From Bacillus sp. FJAT-29790 (GTDB lineage: Bacteria > Bacillota > Bacilli > Bacillales > Cytobacillaceae): 64,000 nt of DNA. Location of the stretch: positions 144,525 to 208,524 of the forward strand of contig NZ_JAHNZZ010000004.1 in the NCBI RefSeq assembly GCF_019039215.1, given 5' to 3'. Shown here piece by piece: positions 16,590 through 54,809 of the stretch. A program made the position numbers and the translations under genes. Position 1 is the first letter of the stretch. Each line of letters starts with the position of its first letter. The notes beneath the pieces are model-generated. The model made no database searches and was not told the DNA's origin. It worked only from the letters and a program-made list of their open reading frames with translations.

Positions 16590-18947
16590 TTATCCCTTTG
16601 TTTCCAATGCTCCAACCAAGTTAGCCATTTGACGGCTGATGTCACGCTCAAGCTCATAATACATTTGTGTAAATAATTCAAGCGCCTCACGCGCATATTG
16701 TCTCATCGGATCTTCCTGACTATAACTGCGCAAACCGACGCCTTCCTTTAGGCGGTCCATTGCATCAATATGTTTCAGCCAGTGGTAGTCGGTTACAGAT
16801 AATAAGAACTGCTTGATCGCCTTGCCGATCTCAGCATTTTCTTTATATTCATCAAGCATTGGCAAGTAAGCATTCATTGCAGCATAAATTGGCTCCGTAA
16901 CCTCATCTAAATCATGAGGATCATTCGGAAAATCAAGCAAGTCATGCGGGAAAATTTGCACGATTCTTTCTTTTAATTTCGTCAGCTTCCACTCTGGTTT
17001 GTCGGCGTCAGCAGGACAACAGCGCTCAATTTCCTCTTTAATATACGATTCAATGGACGCTTTCACAAGCGGAAGCAAATCATCACTTGTTAAAACTTTA
17101 TTCCTTAAATCATACACCGTGTTGCGCTGTAAACTTAGTACATCATCAAGCTTCAGATGATATTCACGGATAGAGAAATTAGCTCCCTCGCAAATACGCT
17201 GCACCCGGTCAATAAACTCATGAATGTTTTTATTGATGATTAGCCCATTCGAGTCGGTTTTAAGCGAGTTGCTCATCTTTTCAACATCGTCTCGCGCAAA
17301 GCGTCGGATCATTTCATCTTCGATCGAAATAAAGAATTCGGAACAGCCTGGATCTCCTTGGCGGCCTGAGCGCCCTTTCAACTGATTATCAATCCGGCGG
17401 GATTCATGCTTTTCTGTTCCGATGACGTATAGCCCGCCAAGCTCAGCGACTCCTTCACCAAGCATAATGTCCGTTCCGCGGCCTGCCATATTGGTGGCTA
17501 CGGTAATCCTGCCTTTTTGACCTGCAAGAGAGATGAGCTGGATTTCCTGTTCGATCGTTTTCGCGTTTAGCAGTTCGAAAGGAAGTTTTTCCTTCCTTAA
17601 GAACTCAGCCACTTTCTCTGACTGGAGAATGGAAGTCGTTCCAATCAAAATAGGCTGGCCCTTTTCGTGCAGTTCTTTCACTCTCTTGATAGCAGCTTCA
17701 TATTTATGCTCAATGGTGTCATATACCTGGTCAGGCAAATCGACACGGATAATCGGTTTGTTTGTCGGGATTTGGACGACATCCATATTATAAATTTGCT
17801 GAAATTCTTTCTCTTCTGTTTTCGCTGTTCCTGTCATGCCTGAAAGAAACGGGTACAGCCGGTAATAGTTCTGAATCGTAATCGATGCCTGTGTTTTATT
17901 TTCTTCAGATACTGCAAGTCCTTCTTTTGCCTCAATGGCCTGATGGAGCCCGTTGCTGAGCGTGCGCCCTTCCATTGGACGACCTGTAAACATATCGATC
18001 AGAAGGATTTTCCCTTCTTTCACAATATAATCGACATCCCTGCTGAACATGACTCGTGCACGCAGCGCCTGGATCATATAATGATAGAGAGTCTGGTGTT
18101 CAAGATCATATAAATTATCAATATCAAACCCGCGTTCAATCCGGGCAATGCCTTCGTCTGTAAAATTGGTTGTTTTCGTTTCGATATCAAAAATAAAATC
18201 AACATCTTCTTTAAACGATTTCGCAATTCTTGCACAGAGGTAGCTCAATTCAGTACTAATCCCTGTTTTGCCGGCAATGATTAGCGGCGTTTTCGCTTCA
18301 TCCACGAGAACACTGTCCACCTCGTCGATGATAGCAAAATGATAAGGTCTCTGTGCACGCTGCCTGATGTCATAAACCATATTGTCACGAAGATTATCAA
18401 AGCCGAATTCGGTTCCAACTCCGTAAGTAATATCCGCTTGGTACGCAAACTTCTTGTGATCCGGCTCCATCTGTGGAAGGTTTAGGCCGACAGTTAGGCC
18501 GAGGAATTCGTGAATCTGTCCAATTAGTTCACGGTCACGTCTAGCTAAGTATTCATTGACAGTAATGACATGAACACCTTTCCCTTCAAGGGCACGCAAA
18601 TAGCTGGGCAAAGAGGCAACGAGCGTTTTCCCTTCCCCAGTAGGCATTTCGGCAATATTTCCTTCCGTTAGCACCATTCCACCGATAAGCTGCACATCGA
18701 AGTGGCGCATGCCAACAACCCGCTTTGCCGCTTCACGGACAACAGAAAAAGCATCTGCCTGAATATCAAAAATGGTTTTACCATTTGCAAGCTGAGCTCT
18801 AAAATAGCCAGTCTTTTCTCGCAGCTCTTGATCGGACAGCTGCTCATATTGCGCTTCTAGCGCATTTATCAATTCTACCTTTTTGTAATACTCTTTAATT
18901 TTTTTATCCTGTTTATCTCCAACAAGCTTTTTAAAATAAGCTAGCAT
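16590..18947 (-). CDS. secA2: Accessory Sec translocase ATPase SecA2
   Basis: This is a SecA-family preprotein translocase ATPase that drives export of selected proteins, typically S-layer proteins and wall hydrolases, through SecYEG. It has DEAD-motor features: MPTGEGKTLVA (Walker A, near residue 100), the IIDEVDSVLVDEAKTPL motif II region, GMTGTAKTEEKEF, and TNMAGRGTDIMLGEGV followed by GRSGRQGDPG. At 785 residues it is shorter than housekeeping SecA, and its C terminus lacks the zinc-binding CxCxSGxxxxxxCH tail, both typical of SecA2. The frame opens at TTG 18965, but ATG 18947 is preceded by GGGGAGAG and starts with MLAYFKKLVG. slaP is downstream; a large subtilase is divergent. Confidence 0.95.
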   Translation of the reverse strand: MLAYFKKLVGDKQDKKIKEYYKKVELINALEAQYEQLSDQELREKTGYFRAQLANGKTIFDIQADAFSVVREAAKRVVGMRHFDVQLIGGMVLTEGNIAEMPTGEGKTLVASLPSYLRALEGKGVHVITVNEYLARRDRELIGQIHEFLGLTVGLNLPQMEPDHKKFAYQADITYGVGTEFGFDNLRDNMVYDIRQRAQRPYHFAIIDEVDSVLVDEAKTPLIIAGKTGISTELSYLCARIAKSFKEDVDFIFDIETKTTNFTDEGIARIERGFDIDNLYDLEHQTLYHYMIQALRARVMFSRDVDYIVKEGKILLIDMFTGRPMEGRTLSNGLHQAIEAKEGLAVSEENKTQASITIQNYYRLYPFLSGMTGTAKTEEKEFQQIYNMDVVQIPTNKPIIRVDLPDQVYDTIEHKYEAAIKRVKELHEKGQPILIGTTSILQSEKVAEFLRKEKLPFELLNAKTIEQEIQLISLAGQKGRITVATNMAGRGTDIMLGEGVAELGGLYVIGTEKHESRRIDNQLKGRSGRQGDPGCSEFFISIEDEMIRRFARDDVEKMSNSLKTDSNGLIINKNIHEFIDRVQRICEGANFSIREYHLKLDDVLSLQRNTVYDLRNKVLTSDDLLPLVKASIESYIKEEIERCCPADADKPEWKLTKLKERIVQIFPHDLLDFPNDPHDLDEVTEPIYAAMNAYLPMLDEYKENAEIGKAIKQFLLSVTDYHWLKHIDAMDRLKEGVGLRSYSQEDPMRQYAREALELFTQMYYELERDISRQMANLVGALETKG

Positions 18948-19189
18948 TTTGTTCTCTCCCCACAACTAAACACTTGCAATTTTTGCAAATTCCTAGAAAC
19001 AGTATACCACTGTTTTTCTTGACTTTCATCTAATGGCAGGGAAGAAATTAAATCCATTTCCCAAAGGGAATTATAGTAAAAAATAATTAAAATGGGAATT
19101 TTTAATAAATTTTAGTTTATTATGTAACTATTTCCATTTGAAATCGTCTATAATAAAGTGAGTCTATTAATCTATTAGGAGGGTTTCAT

Positions 19190-36660: not shown

Positions 36661-36984
36661 AAATGGGGCCAACAAGAGACAAGAGAACAAGTCAGTCTCT
36701 TATCTTTCATATATTTACATTTGGTGGAATTGATTCAGTTCCCGTAAAGATAAGTTTCTATTAGGACTTTCTGTTATGTGGTGTACCAATTCAAAGAGGG
36801 AAAAGTGTAGATAGGTTCTAGAAATCGGTGTTAGACACATCTTGTGGATAAAAAGGAGATAGCCATAAAAATGTTTTTTTCATTTTGTTTTATATGGCTT
36901 AAAGATTATGATAAAATACCATTAGATGGATAAAAATTCAATTCTTGGGTGCATAAATAGAGATTTAAAAGGAGGGTTTTGAAG

Positions 36985-38388
36985 ATGAGAAAAATGATGC
37001 CAATGGTTGTATGTGTAAGTCTATTTTTCGTTGGATTGGCTACGCCTATTCATGTTGTGCATGGTTCTGCTCCTATCCTTAGCGGCAACAGCGTAGGAAG
37101 TCCTGAGCATTCACAAGTATCAGCTTTAACAATAGAGGAAGCAATCGATCTGGCTCTATCGAATGATCAAACAATCATTCTTTTAGGCTATCAATACGAA
37201 ATTCTTAAGCTTGACAGAATAATAAGCGAAAATACAATTATTGATCTAGAGGAAGAAATCAGAAATGCAGAAAATTATAGTGCACAACCGACAAACCCGG
37301 ATGTAGTAAGACAAAGTATCATAAAAAATATTCAATCTAAAAATGCTGGAGTTAAGGATAAAAGCTATGGAGAAGAGTGGCCACCTGAGCTGATAGAAGA
37401 AGTGGAAACCTTAACAGCAAGTACAATTCAAGCAAACAGGGCTATAAATGCCCAGAATGCTTCAAGAGCCAGTCAGGTAAAGGATACACTGACTTCTAAT
37501 ATTGATAGTTTAAAAAATGGATTAAAAAATAATGAAATAAACAAGGAAAAAAATCAATTGCAAGTGGCGGAAACGAAGGAAGGAATTCGTTTCATGATAA
37601 AAGGGCGCATTGTCGAGCTTCTAAGTTTAAAAGCAGGCTTGGATTTCCAAGATCAGCATCTTAATCTTTTAAAAGATGACATTAAAAAAGCAGAAACGGA
37701 ATTAAATACGGGAACTGCTTCTTATAATAGTTTAATAAGGTTGAAGAGGGATTTGCAAACCAACGAGCAAGAAAGGGAAAAAAGGCAAAAGCAATATGAT
37801 CTTGAATTAACGCGGCTATTACACGATATTAATTATCCCACAAATAAAAAGGTAGAATTAATCTCACCCAATTTAAAAAACCTTAAAAAAATTAACATGT
37901 CAAAAGTTAATGAAACAAAGGAGAAATTCTTAGCCAATTCATTTGAGTTAAAACGGATAGATCAAGATTTAGCCAAATTAGCATATGATCGTAAACAAAT
38001 AATAAACAAAAGAGATGAAGGGAATTCAGATAACGTTGAAAACTCATATCTTTTGGAGGAAATAAAGCAACAAGAGATTAAGATAAAATTAGAAGAAAAA
38101 AATAAAATCGAAAAAGACCTCCCTAAACAAGTGACAACCATCTATGAAAAAGCAGATGAAGCTTATTCAGATATTATAAATAAACAAACACTAAAAACAC
38201 ACCAAATTGAAGATGAGAGAAATTTAGAAATTCAATACGAGTTAGGCCTTATTTCTTGGCATGACTATAAAAAGGCTAGCTTTTCAACCAAACAAATTGC
38301 ATTTGACGAACTAATGGCAAATTACTCGTACTATCTTAAGCTTAGTGAGATGGAAGCGCTTGAAAGAGGGATTATGTTTTCTAAATAG
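36985..38388 (+). CDS. TolC-like secreted coiled-coil protein
   Basis: This 467-residue protein has a signal peptide (about 1-28, ending VVHG). The sequence ALTIEEAIDLALSNDQTIIL, then GYQYEILKLDRIISEN, is the N-terminal signature of TolC/outer-membrane-efflux family proteins. Long heptad-rich helices fill the rest (about 80-260 and 300-460), including GTASYNSLIRLKRDLQTNEQ, again like TolC helical hairpins. Gram-positive cells lack an outer membrane, so it is more likely a secreted, wall-spanning helical protein. The frame opens at TTG 36979, but ATG 36985 has better spacing from AAAAGGAGGG. It lies among S-layer genes; function unknown. Confidence 0.75.
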   Translation: MRKMMPMVVCVSLFFVGLATPIHVVHGSAPILSGNSVGSPEHSQVSALTIEEAIDLALSNDQTIILLGYQYEILKLDRIISENTIIDLEEEIRNAENYSAQPTNPDVVRQSIIKNIQSKNAGVKDKSYGEEWPPELIEEVETLTASTIQANRAINAQNASRASQVKDTLTSNIDSLKNGLKNNEINKEKNQLQVAETKEGIRFMIKGRIVELLSLKAGLDFQDQHLNLLKDDIKKAETELNTGTASYNSLIRLKRDLQTNEQEREKRQKQYDLELTRLLHDINYPTNKKVELISPNLKNLKKINMSKVNETKEKFLANSFELKRIDQDLAKLAYDRKQIINKRDEGNSDNVENSYLLEEIKQQEIKIKLEEKNKIEKDLPKQVTTIYEKADEAYSDIINKQTLKTHQIEDERNLEIQYELGLISWHDYKKASFSTKQIAFDELMANYSYYLKLSEMEALERGIMFSK

Positions 38389-39034: not shown

Positions 39035-40324
39035 CTATTCAACTGGCAAATAACGATCATCCATCACTCTTGCCATAAAAGAAGAAAATTGAGCACGAGT
39101 CACTGGATTGTTTGGTTTAAAGGTATTGTCATTATATCCCGTTGTAATTTTGTTGGCAGCAAGAGCAGAAATATAGTTATGAGCCCAATGTCTGCCTGGA
39201 ACATCTGTATATTCATTATTATTTTTGCCTGTTAGTTCGTAGGCGTTCACTAAAATACGAGCCATCTCATCACGTGTTAATGGATCATTTGGGTTGAACT
39301 TCTGTACATTTGGGTAAATTCCTTCTGCCACTAGAGCAGCAATCGCTCCATATGCCCAATGATTTTTCGGAACATCGGTAAATCCAGGGGCTGGTCGGTT
39401 ATCAGTGTCTAAATAGAGAGCGCGTGCAATCATGGTTGCTGCCTGAGCACGGGACACTGTTGCGTTTGGATTAAAGCTTCCATCCTGATATCCCTTTATG
39501 ATTCCTTGATCCGATAAATACGCGATTTCTTTTACAGCCCAGTGCTTTAAATCAACATCCTTAAATGGCAGCGCATTTACTTCAAAGAAATAAGGCCCAG
39601 TTCCGTAAGACATTTTTAAATAGTAGGATCCAGGATTTAATTTGATGGTATTATCCCAATATTCAAGTGTCCTTATATAATTCTGTTCTGAATCATAAAG
39701 GTTTGTACTGGATGGAAGGTTAAACCCATATAATCCGGCAACCGGGACATCAAATTTAAAATAGTCCACCTCTCTAAAGGTGTCCATAATTGTTTTTAGT
39801 TGGTGGATGTTTGCATAATAACGAGTATTGAGTAAAATTGGGTTTGCAGATTTAAAGTCACCGTTGGGTTCTAATTCGTAGTAAATCGGGTCCGACAGCT
39901 CCACCGTCATTTTGTATGGGAAAACATCATCTGCATAGTTTGCCGTAAGTCTTATCGTATACTCGCCCTTTGGCAAAGCAATTTCATCTTGAATAAAATC
40001 TCTAGAGCTTATGTCATTATGCGTCATTAGAATCTTTTTCTTATTTTCATCAATTAAATCAAAAATCATCACTTCTTCATTTGTATCGACGGTAAACTTA
40101 ATTTTCTTATTTTTATTCAAGACAATTTTGTAAAAGTCTTCCTTACCTTCTAATCCATTCCCCTCTACAGTAGCAAGCACTTTGGCTCCTGCTTGCTTAA
40201 AGGTTAATAGCTTAGGAGATTCAAAGCTAGTTTCTACAGCAATTATCTCTTCTGCATACGCGGGCAATAAAGGCTGGCTTAGAAGCGCAATTCCTGTAAC
40301 TAGTCCAATAAAGTGTTTTTTCAT
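39035..40324 (-). CDS. SLH surface protein controlled by a c-di-GMP riboswitch
   Basis: This 429-residue protein has a signal peptide (about 1-25, LPAYAEE). Two PPC-like beta domains follow (about 35-150 and 150-250), suggested by KEDFYKIVLNKNKKIKFTVD and REVDYFKFDVPVAGLYGFNL. Three SLH domains lie at about 255-425: FKDVDLKHWAVKEI, FTDVPKNHWAYGAI and YTDVPGRHWAHNYI. The start ATG 40324 follows AGGGGGAAAA. It has no catalytic motif I can see; PPC and SLH domains suggest a wall-anchored binding or matrix protein. The leader contains a GEMM-type aptamer and terminator, so its expression should answer to cyclic di-GMP, linking it to a sessile or motile switch. Confidence 0.9.
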   Translation of the reverse strand: MKKHFIGLVTGIALLSQPLLPAYAEEIIAVETSFESPKLLTFKQAGAKVLATVEGNGLEGKEDFYKIVLNKNKKIKFTVDTNEEVMIFDLIDENKKKILMTHNDISSRDFIQDEIALPKGEYTIRLTANYADDVFPYKMTVELSDPIYYELEPNGDFKSANPILLNTRYYANIHQLKTIMDTFREVDYFKFDVPVAGLYGFNLPSSTNLYDSEQNYIRTLEYWDNTIKLNPGSYYLKMSYGTGPYFFEVNALPFKDVDLKHWAVKEIAYLSDQGIIKGYQDGSFNPNATVSRAQAATMIARALYLDTDNRPAPGFTDVPKNHWAYGAIAALVAEGIYPNVQKFNPNDPLTRDEMARILVNAYELTGKNNNEYTDVPGRHWAHNYISALAANKITTGYNDNTFKPNNPVTRAQFSSFMARVMDDRYLPVE

Positions 40325-40370
40325 TTCAAGTTTTCCCCCTAAAATGGTAATAAGTTTTTAACTGCACAAG

Positions 40371-40401
40371 AAAAAGACTATCCTGATTTAAGAATAGCCA
40401 C
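40371..40401 (-). terminator. Riboswitch expression-platform terminator
   Basis: On the minus strand GGCTATTC, loop TTAAATCA, GGATAGTC, then TTTTT. It lies between the c-di-GMP aptamer and the SLH start codon. Confidence 0.8.
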
Positions 40402-40437
40402 CGTTAAAAAGTTATAGAAATTTCCCCTTCTAACAAT

Positions 40438-40516
40438 GGTAACCCGACTGTCATAGATAAAATATATCCTTAGACTCGTAGCTTTGCGTCCCATACTTTA
40501 ATATGGTTTGCCTTTT
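40438..40516 (-). promoter_or_regulatory. Cyclic di-GMP-I (GEMM) riboswitch aptamer
   Basis: On the minus strand the leader of the SLH gene contains, in order, the conserved GEMM-I blocks GGCAAACC, a short hairpin CCATA...TATGG, GGGACGCAAAGCTACGAG, TCTAA, a variable P2 hairpin and CAGTCGGGTTACC. These match the class I c-di-GMP aptamer (Rfam RF01051 type) as I know it: the GACGCAAAGC junction and the CAGTCGGGTT 3' strand are diagnostic. GGCAAACC pairs with the terminal GGGTTACC strand. An intrinsic terminator follows about 40 nt downstream, so transcription is likely controlled by c-di-GMP. The direction (on or off) cannot be judged by eye. Confidence 0.9.
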
Positions 40517-40861
40517 TCATTTGTATAACACTAACTATATTACCATAAAAATCAAAAATAGGAAGTTTGAATTAGGAAAATAGTATTACATAAACTCGCC
40601 ATATAGAGTAAAAATCCTACTTGTAGCCTATTGAATAAAGTTTGATTAAATTATTTAAAAAATAAACTAATTAAACCACGTTTTGTTACGTAGTTTATGG
40701 AAATAGGAGAAATCGCCGATAATCGCCTTTAACCTTAGTTTACATAATCTAATAGGGCTTTTCTTTTTGAGTCCAAAAGGGATTGACGAACAACTTTGTT
40801 AGAATAGTGTAAACGAGCACAATATTTCGATTTTTCTTTTACATTAACCCGGAGGAATCTT

Positions 40862-50282: not shown

Positions 50283-51680
50283 ATGAAAAAAATAACTAGA
50301 TTGCTAGGAGCTTTATCCTTTATTGCTGCCTTTAGTGTGATTGCAGGTTGCAGCAATGATAAAGCGTCAACAGAAGAGAAAATAGAGAAGGAAATTCCGA
50401 TTCAGGTTGCGGAAATCCAATATGGTTCTTTAAGTGATAGCAACCGGCTAACTGGTACGATTATTCCCGAATCAGATGTGAAAGTGGTTCCAAAGGCACC
50501 AGGTGAAATCAAGAGAATCATGGTGAAAAAGGGAGATATCGTAAAGGCAGGAGCCGTTCTTGCCCAATTGGATGATTCAGCGGAACGAAATGCGGTCGGG
50601 CAACAGCAAGCTGCATTAAAACAAGCACAAAGCGGCTTGCAAAGCGCACAAAGCGGAAAGGCTAAAGCGGAAATAAGCTATACACAAGCTCAAAGCTCAA
50701 TAAGACAAGCAGAAGCTGCTTTGGCAAATGCGCGTAAATCAAGAGACGATAACTTAGATAATATCGAATTTCAAGTCAAAAATGCGCAGATTGCTTTCGA
50801 TTCGGCCAAGCAAAATTTAGAGCGGATGCAAGCCTTATTTGTAGAGGGACTAATTGCTAAGCAAAATCTTGAAGATGCAGAGAAGGCGGAGAAAAACGCG
50901 AAAAACGCTTATGATCAAGTGCAATTGAATAAAAGTCAGGCTTCGAGTGATATTAGTTTTCAATCATTAGAAGCTTCAATTGATCAAGCACGAATTGGGG
51001 CAAGCCTTGCTCAGTCATCGATTCATGAAGCAGAAATTGGCATCGTACGGGCTCAAGCAGCGGTGGAGCAGGCGCAACTAGCTGTTCAGTCGGCTAGTGA
51101 CCGTTTAGCTGATAAAGTCATCGTTGCAACTGCTTCTGGGGAAATCACGGCTGTTACAGGTGAAGTTGGAGCAATGGCATCCGCCCAGAATCCTTTTGCT
51201 ACCATTGTCTCCATCGACAAGGTGAAAATAAGTGTGAATATCTTACCTACTCAGCTTTCTGCCTTTAAACAAGGTGATTCTGTCAATGTTGAAGTAAGTG
51301 GGACTGATAAGGCTTTTACTGGAAAAATTTCATATGTTTCTGCCATTAGTTCCGGGTCTGGTTTGTTTGCGATCGAGGCAGAAGTAGAGAACAAGGATCA
51401 CGCCATTCGTCCGGGCATGGTCGCCTCCATTATGATGGATGAAGTATTAGTAGATCAATCATTAATGGTTCCATCTGGTGCGGTTATTCAGAAAGCAGGC
51501 AAATCTGTCATCTTTGTCGTTGCTGATGGAAAAGCGGTTCAAAAAGAAGTGGAAGTTGTTCACTATGGTACAGATTCTACGGCTATAACTGGTGAATTGA
51601 GCGAGAAAGAGAAAGTCGTTACTAAAGGCCAAAACCTCCTGCATGATGGAGATCTAGTGAAGATTATGAAGGAGGAATAA
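50283..51680 (+). CDS. RND efflux membrane-fusion adaptor (HlyD family) lipoprotein
   Basis: This 465-residue adaptor has a lipoprotein signal with a lipobox VIAGC (Cys at about 23). A biotinyl-lipoyl-like half at about 55-95 includes VVPKAPGEIKRIMVKKGDIV. A long coiled-coil hairpin spans about 105-270 and is rich in Ala/Gln (AALKQAQSGLQSAQSGKAKA). The second lipoyl half (VIVATASGEITAVTGEVGAM) and a beta-barrel (about 310-465, IRPGMVASIMMDE) follow. It would sit on the outer face of the membrane and couple the RND pump to the exterior. The start ATG 50283 follows AAGGAGGATTTGAG. The pump gene follows 3 bp later, so they form an operon. Confidence 0.92.
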   Translation: MKKITRLLGALSFIAAFSVIAGCSNDKASTEEKIEKEIPIQVAEIQYGSLSDSNRLTGTIIPESDVKVVPKAPGEIKRIMVKKGDIVKAGAVLAQLDDSAERNAVGQQQAALKQAQSGLQSAQSGKAKAEISYTQAQSSIRQAEAALANARKSRDDNLDNIEFQVKNAQIAFDSAKQNLERMQALFVEGLIAKQNLEDAEKAEKNAKNAYDQVQLNKSQASSDISFQSLEASIDQARIGASLAQSSIHEAEIGIVRAQAAVEQAQLAVQSASDRLADKVIVATASGEITAVTGEVGAMASAQNPFATIVSIDKVKISVNILPTQLSAFKQGDSVNVEVSGTDKAFTGKISYVSAISSGSGLFAIEAEVENKDHAIRPGMVASIMMDEVLVDQSLMVPSGAVIQKAGKSVIFVVADGKAVQKEVEVVHYGTDSTAITGELSEKEKVVTKGQNLLHDGDLVKIMKEE

Positions 51681-51683
51681 TCG

Positions 51684-54600
51684 TTGAAACTTATTAAAGG
51701 TTCGATTAATCGCCCAGTCGGAGTCATCATGATTGTGGTGCTTGCTCTATTAGTTGGGGTGGTTGCACTTAGGAATTTAGCCGTGGATCTGTACCCGAAA
51801 TTAGACTTGCCTATTGCCGTTATTGCCACGAGCTATCCAGGTGCAGCTCCACAGGAAGTGGAAGAATTAATCAGTAAGCCGATCGAAGAAGCTGTTGGGA
51901 CAATTGAAGGGCTGGATACGATTCAATCGGTTTCTCAACCCTCATCATCGTTAATTATTATGCAGTTTGACTACGGTAGAGATATAGCGGGTATTTTAAA
52001 TGATGTTAGGGAAAAATTGGACCGTGTTACAGGTCGATTGCCGGAAGATGCGAATTCACCAATGGTGATGAGGATCGATCCGGCAGCGATGCCTGTTCAA
52101 ATCATTAGCGTAACGAGTACGGAGCATAGTCTTAGTGATTTACAATTAATTGCTGAAAATGAAATTCAACCGGAATTTGAGCGAGCGAAGGGAATCGCAT
52201 CTGCCAGCCTTTCAGGTGGGGTAAGACGGGAAATTCGGGTAGATTTGGATCAAGGGAAGCTCGCTAATTTTAAATTGACAGGTTCCCAAGTCGTCCAAGC
52301 ATTACGCGGGGAGAATCGCTCGGTATCTGCCGGTACAGTTGAACGCGGAGGCGAAGACGTCCAATTGCGGATTGACGGGGAATTCACTTCCGTGGAGGAC
52401 ATTAAAAACACAAAAATTAGTTTAGTCAGCGGTGAGACGATTAAAGTAAGTGATGTCGCCGAGGTGGTTGATACATTCCAAGAGAAGACTACGATCTCAC
52501 GTGTAAATGGGGAAGACACACTTACTCTATCAATTATGAAGCAGTCAGATGCCAATACGATATCGGCTGCGAAAGAGGTACAGAAAGTTCTTGATAAATT
52601 AAACAAACAGTTTAAAGAACGTGGTGTAAAACTAACAATGACTGTTGATACATCCACATTTATTTCACAATCAATCAATTCCGTTGTCTGGAATATGATT
52701 ATTGGTTTTGGCTGTGCGATGGTTATTCTCCAGTTATTTTTACAAAATGTTCGAGCCACAATTGTGATTGGGATGACGATGCCATTATCCCTTCTTACCG
52801 CTTTTATATTGATGTACCTTACAGGTGAAACGATCAATACGATATCAATGGGCGGACTCGCGATTGGGATCGGTCTAATGATTGATAATGGAATCGTTAT
52901 TATCGAGAATGTTTTTAAAAGAAAGACGGAAGGAATGCCGATTAAAGAGGCTGCGTTAGTCGGGGCCACTGAATTAGCACCATCGGTTATTGCTGCCACA
53001 TTAACGACTGCGGCGATCTTTGTGCCAATGCTTTTCATTAATGGGATTGTGGCGCAAATGATCCGTCCACTTGCCTTAACCGTCGTCTTTGCGGTAACGG
53101 CCTCGTTAATTGGGTCGCTAACACTACTTCCAATGTTGTCTTCCAAATTATTAGGAAACGTGAAGGAAACAATTGAAGGTGAAGAACGTAAAGGATTGTT
53201 CAATCGGTTATTGAACAGGCTTACTGAAAACTATGTAAAACTGTTGAAACGGGCTTTAAAATTCAGAAAAACAGTTGTTGCCATCGTTGTTGTAACAGCG
53301 CTTGGCAGTTTGCTCCTTATCCCAATCATTGGGTTCCAATTGTCGCCGGATTCTGACAGTGGCGAGATGCAAATTGATATTACGTTAAAAAACGGTACGC
53401 AATTGGCGCAAACAGAAGAAACAGTTAGAGAAATCAGTGATCGCTTATCTAGCTATGAAGATATTATCGATATGACTACGATCACAATAGGTGGAAGTTC
53501 CGGTAACATGTTTGGGGGCGCATCTGGCTCGGATAAGGCGAGTTTTACAATTAAGCTTATCAGCGCGAGTGAGCGGGATATGTCAACAAAGGAATTCATC
53601 GGGGTAGTTGATTCATTACTTAGCGATATTGCTGGTGCTGAGATCATGGTGAAAGAAAATGACCGGGGAATGAGCTCAGGATCACCTATTCAAATTGAAA
53701 TAACTGGTGAAGACCTTAATGTGCTGGGAGATTTATCCCAACAAGTTGTATGGGTATTTGAAGGCGTAGAAGGTACACTCAATGTCAAAAGTAGTGCAGC
53801 AGAAGGACGACCAGAAGTACAAGTCGTTGTGAATCGTGAATTGGCCAGCCAGTACGGATTATCTTATCAAAATGTTATGAATGATGTCAGCCTTGCCTTC
53901 AATGGGCAAGTAGCAACGAAATATAAAGAAGACGGTGATGAGTTTGACGTTAAAGTGTCATTGCCTAAAGAAAGTAGTCAAACGATTCGCGATTTAGAAA
54001 CATTCGTTATCCGTAATAATGAAGGTGTTCTCATTCCAATCACTGCTGTGGCAGAGTTGAAACAAGTTCAAGGCCCAACCGAAATTAACCGAAAAAACCG
54101 GCAGCGTTCAGTTAATGTGACAAGCGATGTAATTGGTCGTAACGCAGTTGAGGTTACAAAAGATATTCATGCTCAACTAGATCAGCTTACTTTACCAGAA
54201 GGGTATGAAATAAGTACAGGCGGAGAAATGGACGATGTCATGGAGCAGTTAACTCAGCTTGGGATTGCGCTAATTCTCGGGATCATTCTTGTTTATATGG
54301 TCATGGCCTTTCAGTTTGAGTCCTTTACTTATCCGTTTGTAATCATGTTCTCCATTCCAACGATGATTATTGGAGCTTTAGTCGGTCTTTTTGTGACGAA
54401 TTTATCACTAACTGTTCCAGCGTTCATGGGGGTCATCATGCTTGCTGCTATTGTGTTGAACAATGGGATCATTCTTGTGGATTATACGAATATCCTGCGT
54501 AGAAGAGGAATGGAGCGAATGGAGGCCCTTATTGAATCAGGTAGAAGCCGTCTTCGACCAATCCTCATGACATCAGTAACAACGGTATTTACGATGATCC

Positions 54601-54809
54601 CAATTGCCATTGCAATTGGTGAGGGAGCTGAAGCGAACCAGCCTATGGCGGTTGTCGTCATATTTGGTTTAATTGCATCTACCGTGCTAACTCTTGTCTT
54701 TGTGCCAGTTATGTACGTATTTATTGATAATCTAGCCGTCAAAATGAAGCGGCTATTTACCCGAAAAAAATCAAAAGAGGTCATTACGGACGAGAGCTTC
54801 AGTGGGTAA
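51684..54809 (+). CDS. swrC: RND-family efflux transporter (AcrB/SwrC-like)
   Basis: This is a 1041-residue resistance-nodulation-division pump with 12 membrane spans in the usual 1+5+1+5 layout and two large extracellular loops. Key features are the start MKLIKGSINRPVGVIMIVVL, the porter region YPGAAPQEVEELISKPIEEA, and the second-half span ILGIILVYMVMAFQFESFTY. GLAIGIGLMIDNGIVIIENV (TM4) holds the proton-relay acidic residue. The start is TTG 51684 behind GAAGGAGGAA. It is about the length of Bacillus subtilis SwrC (YerP), which exports surfactin-like molecules and is repressed by the TetR protein YerO; the TetR gene here lies downstream in the same order of function. Substrate not known; the symbol gives the closest family. 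Confidence 0.9.
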   Translation: MKLIKGSINRPVGVIMIVVLALLVGVVALRNLAVDLYPKLDLPIAVIATSYPGAAPQEVEELISKPIEEAVGTIEGLDTIQSVSQPSSSLIIMQFDYGRDIAGILNDVREKLDRVTGRLPEDANSPMVMRIDPAAMPVQIISVTSTEHSLSDLQLIAENEIQPEFERAKGIASASLSGGVRREIRVDLDQGKLANFKLTGSQVVQALRGENRSVSAGTVERGGEDVQLRIDGEFTSVEDIKNTKISLVSGETIKVSDVAEVVDTFQEKTTISRVNGEDTLTLSIMKQSDANTISAAKEVQKVLDKLNKQFKERGVKLTMTVDTSTFISQSINSVVWNMIIGFGCAMVILQLFLQNVRATIVIGMTMPLSLLTAFILMYLTGETINTISMGGLAIGIGLMIDNGIVIIENVFKRKTEGMPIKEAALVGATELAPSVIAATLTTAAIFVPMLFINGIVAQMIRPLALTVVFAVTASLIGSLTLLPMLSSKLLGNVKETIEGEERKGLFNRLLNRLTENYVKLLKRALKFRKTVVAIVVVTALGSLLLIPIIGFQLSPDSDSGEMQIDITLKNGTQLAQTEETVREISDRLSSYEDIIDMTTITIGGSSGNMFGGASGSDKASFTIKLISASERDMSTKEFIGVVDSLLSDIAGAEIMVKENDRGMSSGSPIQIEITGEDLNVLGDLSQQVVWVFEGVEGTLNVKSSAAEGRPEVQVVVNRELASQYGLSYQNVMNDVSLAFNGQVATKYKEDGDEFDVKVSLPKESSQTIRDLETFVIRNNEGVLIPITAVAELKQVQGPTEINRKNRQRSVNVTSDVIGRNAVEVTKDIHAQLDQLTLPEGYEISTGGEMDDVMEQLTQLGIALILGIILVYMVMAFQFESFTYPFVIMFSIPTMIIGALVGLFVTNLSLTVPAFMGVIMLAAIVLNNGIILVDYTNILRRRGMERMEALIESGRSRLRPILMTSVTTVFTMIPIAIAIGEGAEANQPMAVVVIFGLIASTVLTLVFVPVMYVFIDNLAVKMKRLFTRKKSKEVITDESFSG

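Follow-up and report, generated by a model that had tools for sequence, protein, structure and literature searches.

A probable c-di-GMP-I riboswitch upstream of an SLH-protein gene in Bacillus sp. FJAT-29790 and its predicted linker relay to a terminator

Here we describe a c-di-GMP-I (GEMM-I) aptamer, an intrinsic terminator and a gene for an SLH protein, which follow one another in this order on the minus strand of a 64,000-nucleotide stretch of DNA from Bacillus sp. FJAT-29790 (hereafter the window), with a predicted linker helix between the aptamer and the terminator. The arrangement is a real and probably working riboswitch of a known class placed before an unusual target. Class membership together with folding points to control of the SLH gene by c-di-GMP, and it is from such modelling that we infer ligand binding, the direction of switching and the size of the effect. 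We favour, with moderate confidence, a riboswitch of the transcription-termination type in which high c-di-GMP would turn the SLH gene off. A fuller proposal stands at about an even chance: one of about 20 SLH-anchored proteins would be under a motility-type OFF riboswitch, by which c-di-GMP would cut off one particular wall protein during the change to sessile life, through a relay of two base pairs in the linker (aptamer CC to terminator-foot GG) on a platform common to the chemotaxis-receptor leaders of the clade. A search of the literature on c-di-GMP or GEMM riboswitches and the S-layer or SLH proteins, which covered titles and the beginnings of abstracts and had most subscription papers outside its scope, returned no RF01051 element before an SLH gene. 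Apparently, a known riboswitch class is here joined to an unreported type of target gene.

Aptamer and leader

When the 64-kb window was scanned against 4227 Rfam families, RF01051 matched over its full length (model positions 1-87 of 87) with 83.3 bits and an E value of 6.5e-15, the gathering score of the family being 35 bits. A sequence-only reading of this DNA had recognised three GEMM-I blocks on the minus strand and had asked for this covariance-model search; the blocks read as quoted and the search bore the assignment out. No other Rfam family reached its own gathering score in the window, and a laxer scan of positions 16000-64000 added only five further rows, all of them sRNA families under their gathering scores. 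RF01051 had no match in any of 14 control genomes. The coordinates of the features are collected in Table 1.

Table 1. Features of the leader and of the gene behind it, in window positions
Feature	Position	Strand	Basis
c-di-GMP-I (GEMM-I) aptamer	40435..40522	-	cmscan RF01051, full length
14-bp linker hairpin	40398..40439 (5' strand 40439-40426, 3' strand 40411-40398)	-	predicted fold
Intrinsic terminator hairpin GGCTATTCTTAAATCAGGATAGTC	40376..40399	-	pattern scan
T5 tract of the terminator, then CTT	40371..40375	-	sequence and pattern scan
AGGGGG 10 nt upstream of the ATG, likely ribosome binding site	40335..40340	-	read from sequence
SLH gene, 429 aa	39035..40324	-	Pfam SLH match

The conserved core of RF01051, with its main contacts and helices, is retained in the aptamer, and its score is among the two best for this family in the genome (83.3 and 83.1 bits). 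By alignment and index mapping, the ligand-contact nucleotides G20, A47 and C92 of Vc2 have their equivalents in G40511, A40485 and C40439; in Bc1 the same three are G11, A38 and C81 (excerpt of PMC11218506). The aptamer is thus like the family in its full-length match, core and contact positions, but differs from it in its target, an SLH gene, and in its P2 loop, which is UAAA instead of the usual GAAA. A GNRA tetraloop on P2 together with a receptor in P3 is usual in the family, although the model does not demand it. In a survey of 127 parsable aptamers out of 149, GAAA was found in 122 and UAAA in three. The UAAA loop could lower the affinity for c-di-GMP. P1 shows scant canonical pairing past one G-C pair.

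The distance from the aptamer match to the ATG at 40324 is 110 nt, exactly the spacing first proposed, and the terminator that had been placed between aptamer and gene was recovered there by the pattern scan, as a hairpin followed by T5; this placement is judged by sequence. Counting both strands, the scan found two terminator-like sites in 441 bases, where shuffled sequences gave 0.2 on average. The terminator, which begins 35 nt after the end of the aptamer match and does not overlap it, has a stem energy of -8.1 kcal/mol with its GG foot and -4.1 kcal/mol without it. Between the two lies the linker hairpin, with a predicted energy of -14.2 kcal/mol and a z of -4.5; none of 200 dinucleotide shuffles was equally stable. 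The outer CC of this hairpin (40439-40438) is common to the aptamer, being the C92 equivalent and the C of P1, and its outer GG (40399-40398) is common to the terminator. A scan of the leader region found no sigma-70-like promoter on the minus strand.

The gene behind the riboswitch

The 429-aa protein carries three SLH stretches at its C-terminus (PF00395, 150.9 bits, over the Pfam cut-off), and this part is similar in sequence to the SLH portions of the Sap and SbsB structures. Its N-terminus is hydrophobic and by eye resembles a signal peptide. The protein had been described as having SLH and PPC domains. The SLH part of this description stood, the PPC part less so, the N-terminal part scoring 15.8 bits (E 0.026) against PF04151, whose cut-off is 25.9. 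Because the score is below the cut-off, yet distant relatives of this part (L215, L220), like L006, do pass it, we call the N-terminal half PPC-like, a weakly supported label, and not a clean PPC domain. No orthologue of the 429-aa gene was found. Its N-terminal half had distant relatives only, with a match in five of 36 genomes of the genus (best other identity 27%) and in 18 of 397 genomes of the order, our own genome included in both counts. At 12 loci with SLH relatives, no Rfam family reached its gathering score.

SLH genes and c-di-GMP in the genome

The 47 Pfam SLH matches of the genome (4.55 Mb in nine contigs) were grouped into about 20 loci; a single contig carries 18 of these. Nine SLH genes, by the same grouping, lie in the window, one of them near its end. 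There is a single RF01051 match in the window, so the claim that no other SLH gene there has such an aptamer holds; it extends to the genome, where the aptamer is found at only one of the about 20 SLH loci and this gene is indeed singled out. A tie between c-di-GMP and S-layer composition had also been suggested. This overreaches: with one SLH-anchored protein of 429 aa among about 20 loci, the claim on S-layer composition should shrink to that one protein.

Besides the SLH leader, the genome has four RF01051 matches, three of them upstream of MCP genes and one upstream of the gene for a CheY-like protein of 119 aa. Nine GGDEF matches, eight of them over the cut-off, suggest that the genome is able to make c-di-GMP. 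A search of the genome for c-di-GMP-II riboswitches found none, a result that shows little since the control genomes also gave none. In the CheY leader (L012 9594-9745), a stretch 3' of the aptamer is by eye complementary to the 5' part of the aptamer, and the vicinity shows no T tract; this suggests control at the level of translation. One of the three aptamers before MCPs, at L014 7927-8021, is degenerate (31.7 bits, below the gathering score); it has GGGTACAAAGC in place of GACGCAAAGC and is missing the usual CGCAA block.

Several other loci were recorded. The contig of the window also has three flagellin matches (C4:277-285 kb) and a match to the pyruvyl transferase family (C4:253448), a family which we take to be linked to CsaB. 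Next to the SLH gene cluster lies the gene for a SecA-like protein of 791 aa (window 16590-18965), which might serve surface proteins as an accessory SecA. Window positions 36979-38388 and 50283-54809 encode an outer-membrane-efflux-like protein (OEP), an HlyD-like protein and an RND permease, in a seemingly Gram-positive genome with SLH proteins. An SLH match at G000:C6:36735-37283 has an internal stop codon.

Folding of the leader and direction of switching

Folding ensembles were calculated for a transcript ending at the terminator, with three energy sets at three temperatures (nine settings). In the unconstrained ensemble the 14-bp linker helix was formed and the GG was then missing from the terminator foot; with the aptamer pairs imposed, the GG was freed and the terminator was completed. 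The probability of the terminator foot was 0.05-0.45 in the free ensemble, 0.93-0.995 with the aptamer imposed and 0.90-0.99 with only the two C blocked, the same shift being seen in all nine settings. The free value varied with the energy set (Turner 2004, 0.05-0.10; Turner 1999 and Andronescu 2007, 0.32-0.45), and with Andronescu 2007 the inner pairing of the linker was 0.52-0.64 free and 0.17-0.19 with the aptamer imposed. The linker helix is thus a predicted antiterminator that has sequence in common with both the bound aptamer and the terminator, through its CC and GG, and that leaves the terminator core free to form. This core was folded at 0.82-0.998 without ligand. Because it forms in both states, switching may be partial, altering the strength of the terminator and its spacing to the T tract and not acting in an all-or-none manner.

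The sequence-only reading had named no direction of control. Since imposing the aptamer frees the GG and completes the terminator, c-di-GMP is expected to turn the gene off. In the ligand-free state, the two C that end the aptamer would pair with the two G of the terminator foot by way of the linker hairpin, leaving a short terminator (-4.1 kcal/mol) two bases off the T tract, so that RNA polymerase would read through more frequently. With ligand, one of these C would contact c-di-GMP and the next would close P1; the two G thus released would complete a terminator of -8.1 kcal/mol, flush with the T tract, and transcription would stop. On this view the SLH protein would be made in the motile state, when c-di-GMP is low, like the chemotaxis genes behind the other aptamers of the genome.

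Two other pairings were considered and dropped. A first candidate antiterminator, in which the 3' end of the aptamer pairs with the 5' arm of the terminator in another register, had pair probabilities of at most 0.001 and was replaced by the 14-bp linker. Pairing of the A-rich 5' end of the aptamer with the T tract, which appeared in folds of long transcripts, was set aside on the reasoning that, when the decision is taken, the T tract should not yet have left the polymerase.

The ease with which the terminator core folds without ligand also bears on a different reading, in which binding of c-di-GMP is poor or is not coupled to termination, and the leader attenuates transcription almost constitutively. 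Bc1/mcpE of B. thuringiensis offers a precedent: it is likewise a c-di-GMP-I aptamer with downstream terminators and a chemotaxis target, as in other leaders of this genome, but it has two terminators and reportedly fails to respond to c-di-GMP in vivo (excerpt of PMC11218506). We consider an attenuator of this kind unlikely here, for although the UAAA loop would also fit it, the main contacts and helices are kept, the score is one of the genome's two best and the linker greatly exceeds its shuffles in stability.

Comparison with other leaders

The SLH leader was compared with a sample of 149 of the 163 RF01051 matches in 41 genomes (our own, with all five of its matches, and 40 relatives) and with a further sample of 40 leaders among the matches listed, one per genome, 34 of them from outside the order, taken with about 4 kb each (two shorter). 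Both samples are biased toward strong matches. Among the 149 riboswitches, the aptamer of the window was the only one with an SLH gene as its first ORF, as judged by an SLH model built for this analysis, and no SLH ORF was present in the first five ORFs of the 40 further leaders. SLH ORFs were found within 5 kb, further downstream, at three other riboswitches (G028, G012 and G009). They were rejected as targets: in G028 a hairpin with T5 (by eye) separates the SLH gene from the first gene, and in G012 and G009 other ORFs intervene. An MCP-like ORF was among the first five in 24 of the 149 leaders and in 14 of the 40.

A terminator-like hairpin was found within about 330 nt in 118 of the 149 leaders, a count taken irrespective of gene starts and of shuffles, in which some are likely spurious. 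In 13 of these 118 the hairpin overlaps the end of the aptamer, an ON-like anatomy, and with an insulated aptamer the foot probability fell by at least 0.15 in five of the 13. The other 105 leaders comprised 23 that gained at least about 0.15 (OFF-like; 21 of them with a T tract within 150 nt) and three that lost as much, the rest changing less.

Of the 53 leaders whose terminator is separate and lies at a distance of 8-100 nt, 13 have a CC:GG relay of at least three pairs, the SLH leader and 12 others; G000:C3:37926, which would be the fourteenth, uses pairs other than CC:GG and was left out of this count. The two most extreme linkers were those of G028 (z -4.6) and the SLH leader (-4.5), each with no equally stable sequence among 200 shuffles, and in seven of the 13 the z was above -1.1, these linkers being little or no more stable than shuffles. 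Judged by gene layout, six of the 13 seem to be orthologues of one another. When the linker halves of the 53 leaders were cross-paired (53 x 53), each half of the SLH leader had its own partner as the best of 53. For the whole set, orthologous leaders included, 14 of 5000 permutations paired as well as the matched halves. An MCP was among the first five ORFs in ten of the 12 other relay leaders, as the first listed ORF in L074, L140 and L151 and as a later one in L112, L077 and L080; the two besides this MCP group were G028, before an HTH protein (L095), and G025:C21. When the three MCP leaders of our own genome were folded in this manner, the values moved little or not at all (0.88 to 0.99, 0.97 to 0.99 and 0.99 to 0.99), which counts against the OFF reading.

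Nine of the 13 overlap-type leaders were annotated. Five of these (L075, L094, L106, L137 and L186) precede genes of c-di-GMP metabolism with GGDEF and/or EAL domains, and the other four precede an HD-domain protein with a kinase-like ATPase, CheW, a large fn3 protein and one protein without a family; none precedes an SLH gene. A review calls targets of this sort rare (excerpt of PMC6366702).

Two further observations were made in these samples. In L195, L203 and L211, the aptamers carry GGTACA and GTCACAAAG (by eye), and the C-G pair beside the G20 equivalent seems to be replaced by U-A in a compensatory change. The small protein behind the c-di-GMP-I aptamer of L124 (G001:C1:999669) reads by eye like SinI, and several other genomes of the genus show ORFs laid out in a similar way.

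Discussion

Surface proteins behind c-di-GMP-I riboswitches are known with both signs of control. In B. thuringiensis, Bc2/cap is an ON switch before an adhesin gene (PMC4933901), and CbpA, a collagen binder, is under such a switch (PMC7423583). Bc3-5, before a cell-surface protein operon, are described as switching on (PMC4759541). Like the leader described here, Bc2/cap (cbpA) is a c-di-GMP-I riboswitch that includes a terminator and lies upstream of the gene for a cell-surface protein; it differs in being an ON switch and in its target, a cell-wall-anchored collagen-binding protein, with no mention of SLH in the available excerpts. In C. difficile, class I riboswitches act as OFF switches (PMC6200980, PMC6366702, PMC5270738); Cd1/flgB, zmpI and CD630_27970 are like the favoured reading in turning expression off by termination, and the target of CD630_27970, a calcium-binding adhesion protein, is a surface protein too, but their target genes are others and the excerpts name no SLH gene among them. 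An RNA element upstream of SLH genes has been described as the SLH motif, a candidate riboswitch for which the authors name c-di-GMP as a possible ligand (excerpt of PMC6429828); it is a separate motif of Synergistaceae, Clostridia and Negativicutes and not RF01051.

By these Bacillus examples, the riboswitch before the SLH gene might be an ON switch like Bc2/cap, with the SLH protein as an adhesin of the sessile phase. The clade does contain leaders of the overlap anatomy (13 of 118, only five of the 13 losing at least 0.15, as would be predicted for ON), but the terminator of the SLH leader lies clear of its aptamer, imposing the aptamer strengthened its foot in every setting, and the annotated overlap-type leaders favour GGDEF and/or EAL genes, none having an SLH target. 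We therefore think an ON switch rather improbable. That the element senses another cyclic dinucleotide, for example 3',3'-cGAMP, is very improbable: some GEMM-I variants do bind cGAMP, but specificity for cGAMP versus c-di-GMP follows A versus G at the G20 equivalent, which is G here, and GGDEF proteins are encoded in the genome.

If the preferred reading, an OFF switch working by termination, is true, SLH-anchored surface proteins would join the targets of c-di-GMP riboswitches, and one of them would be tied to the motile state. The advance would lie in a new target gene and a neat platform and not in a new kind of system. The anatomy, in which a terminator either overlaps the end of the aptamer or is connected to it through a relay helix, may provide a testable rule for telling ON from OFF leaders in Bacilli.
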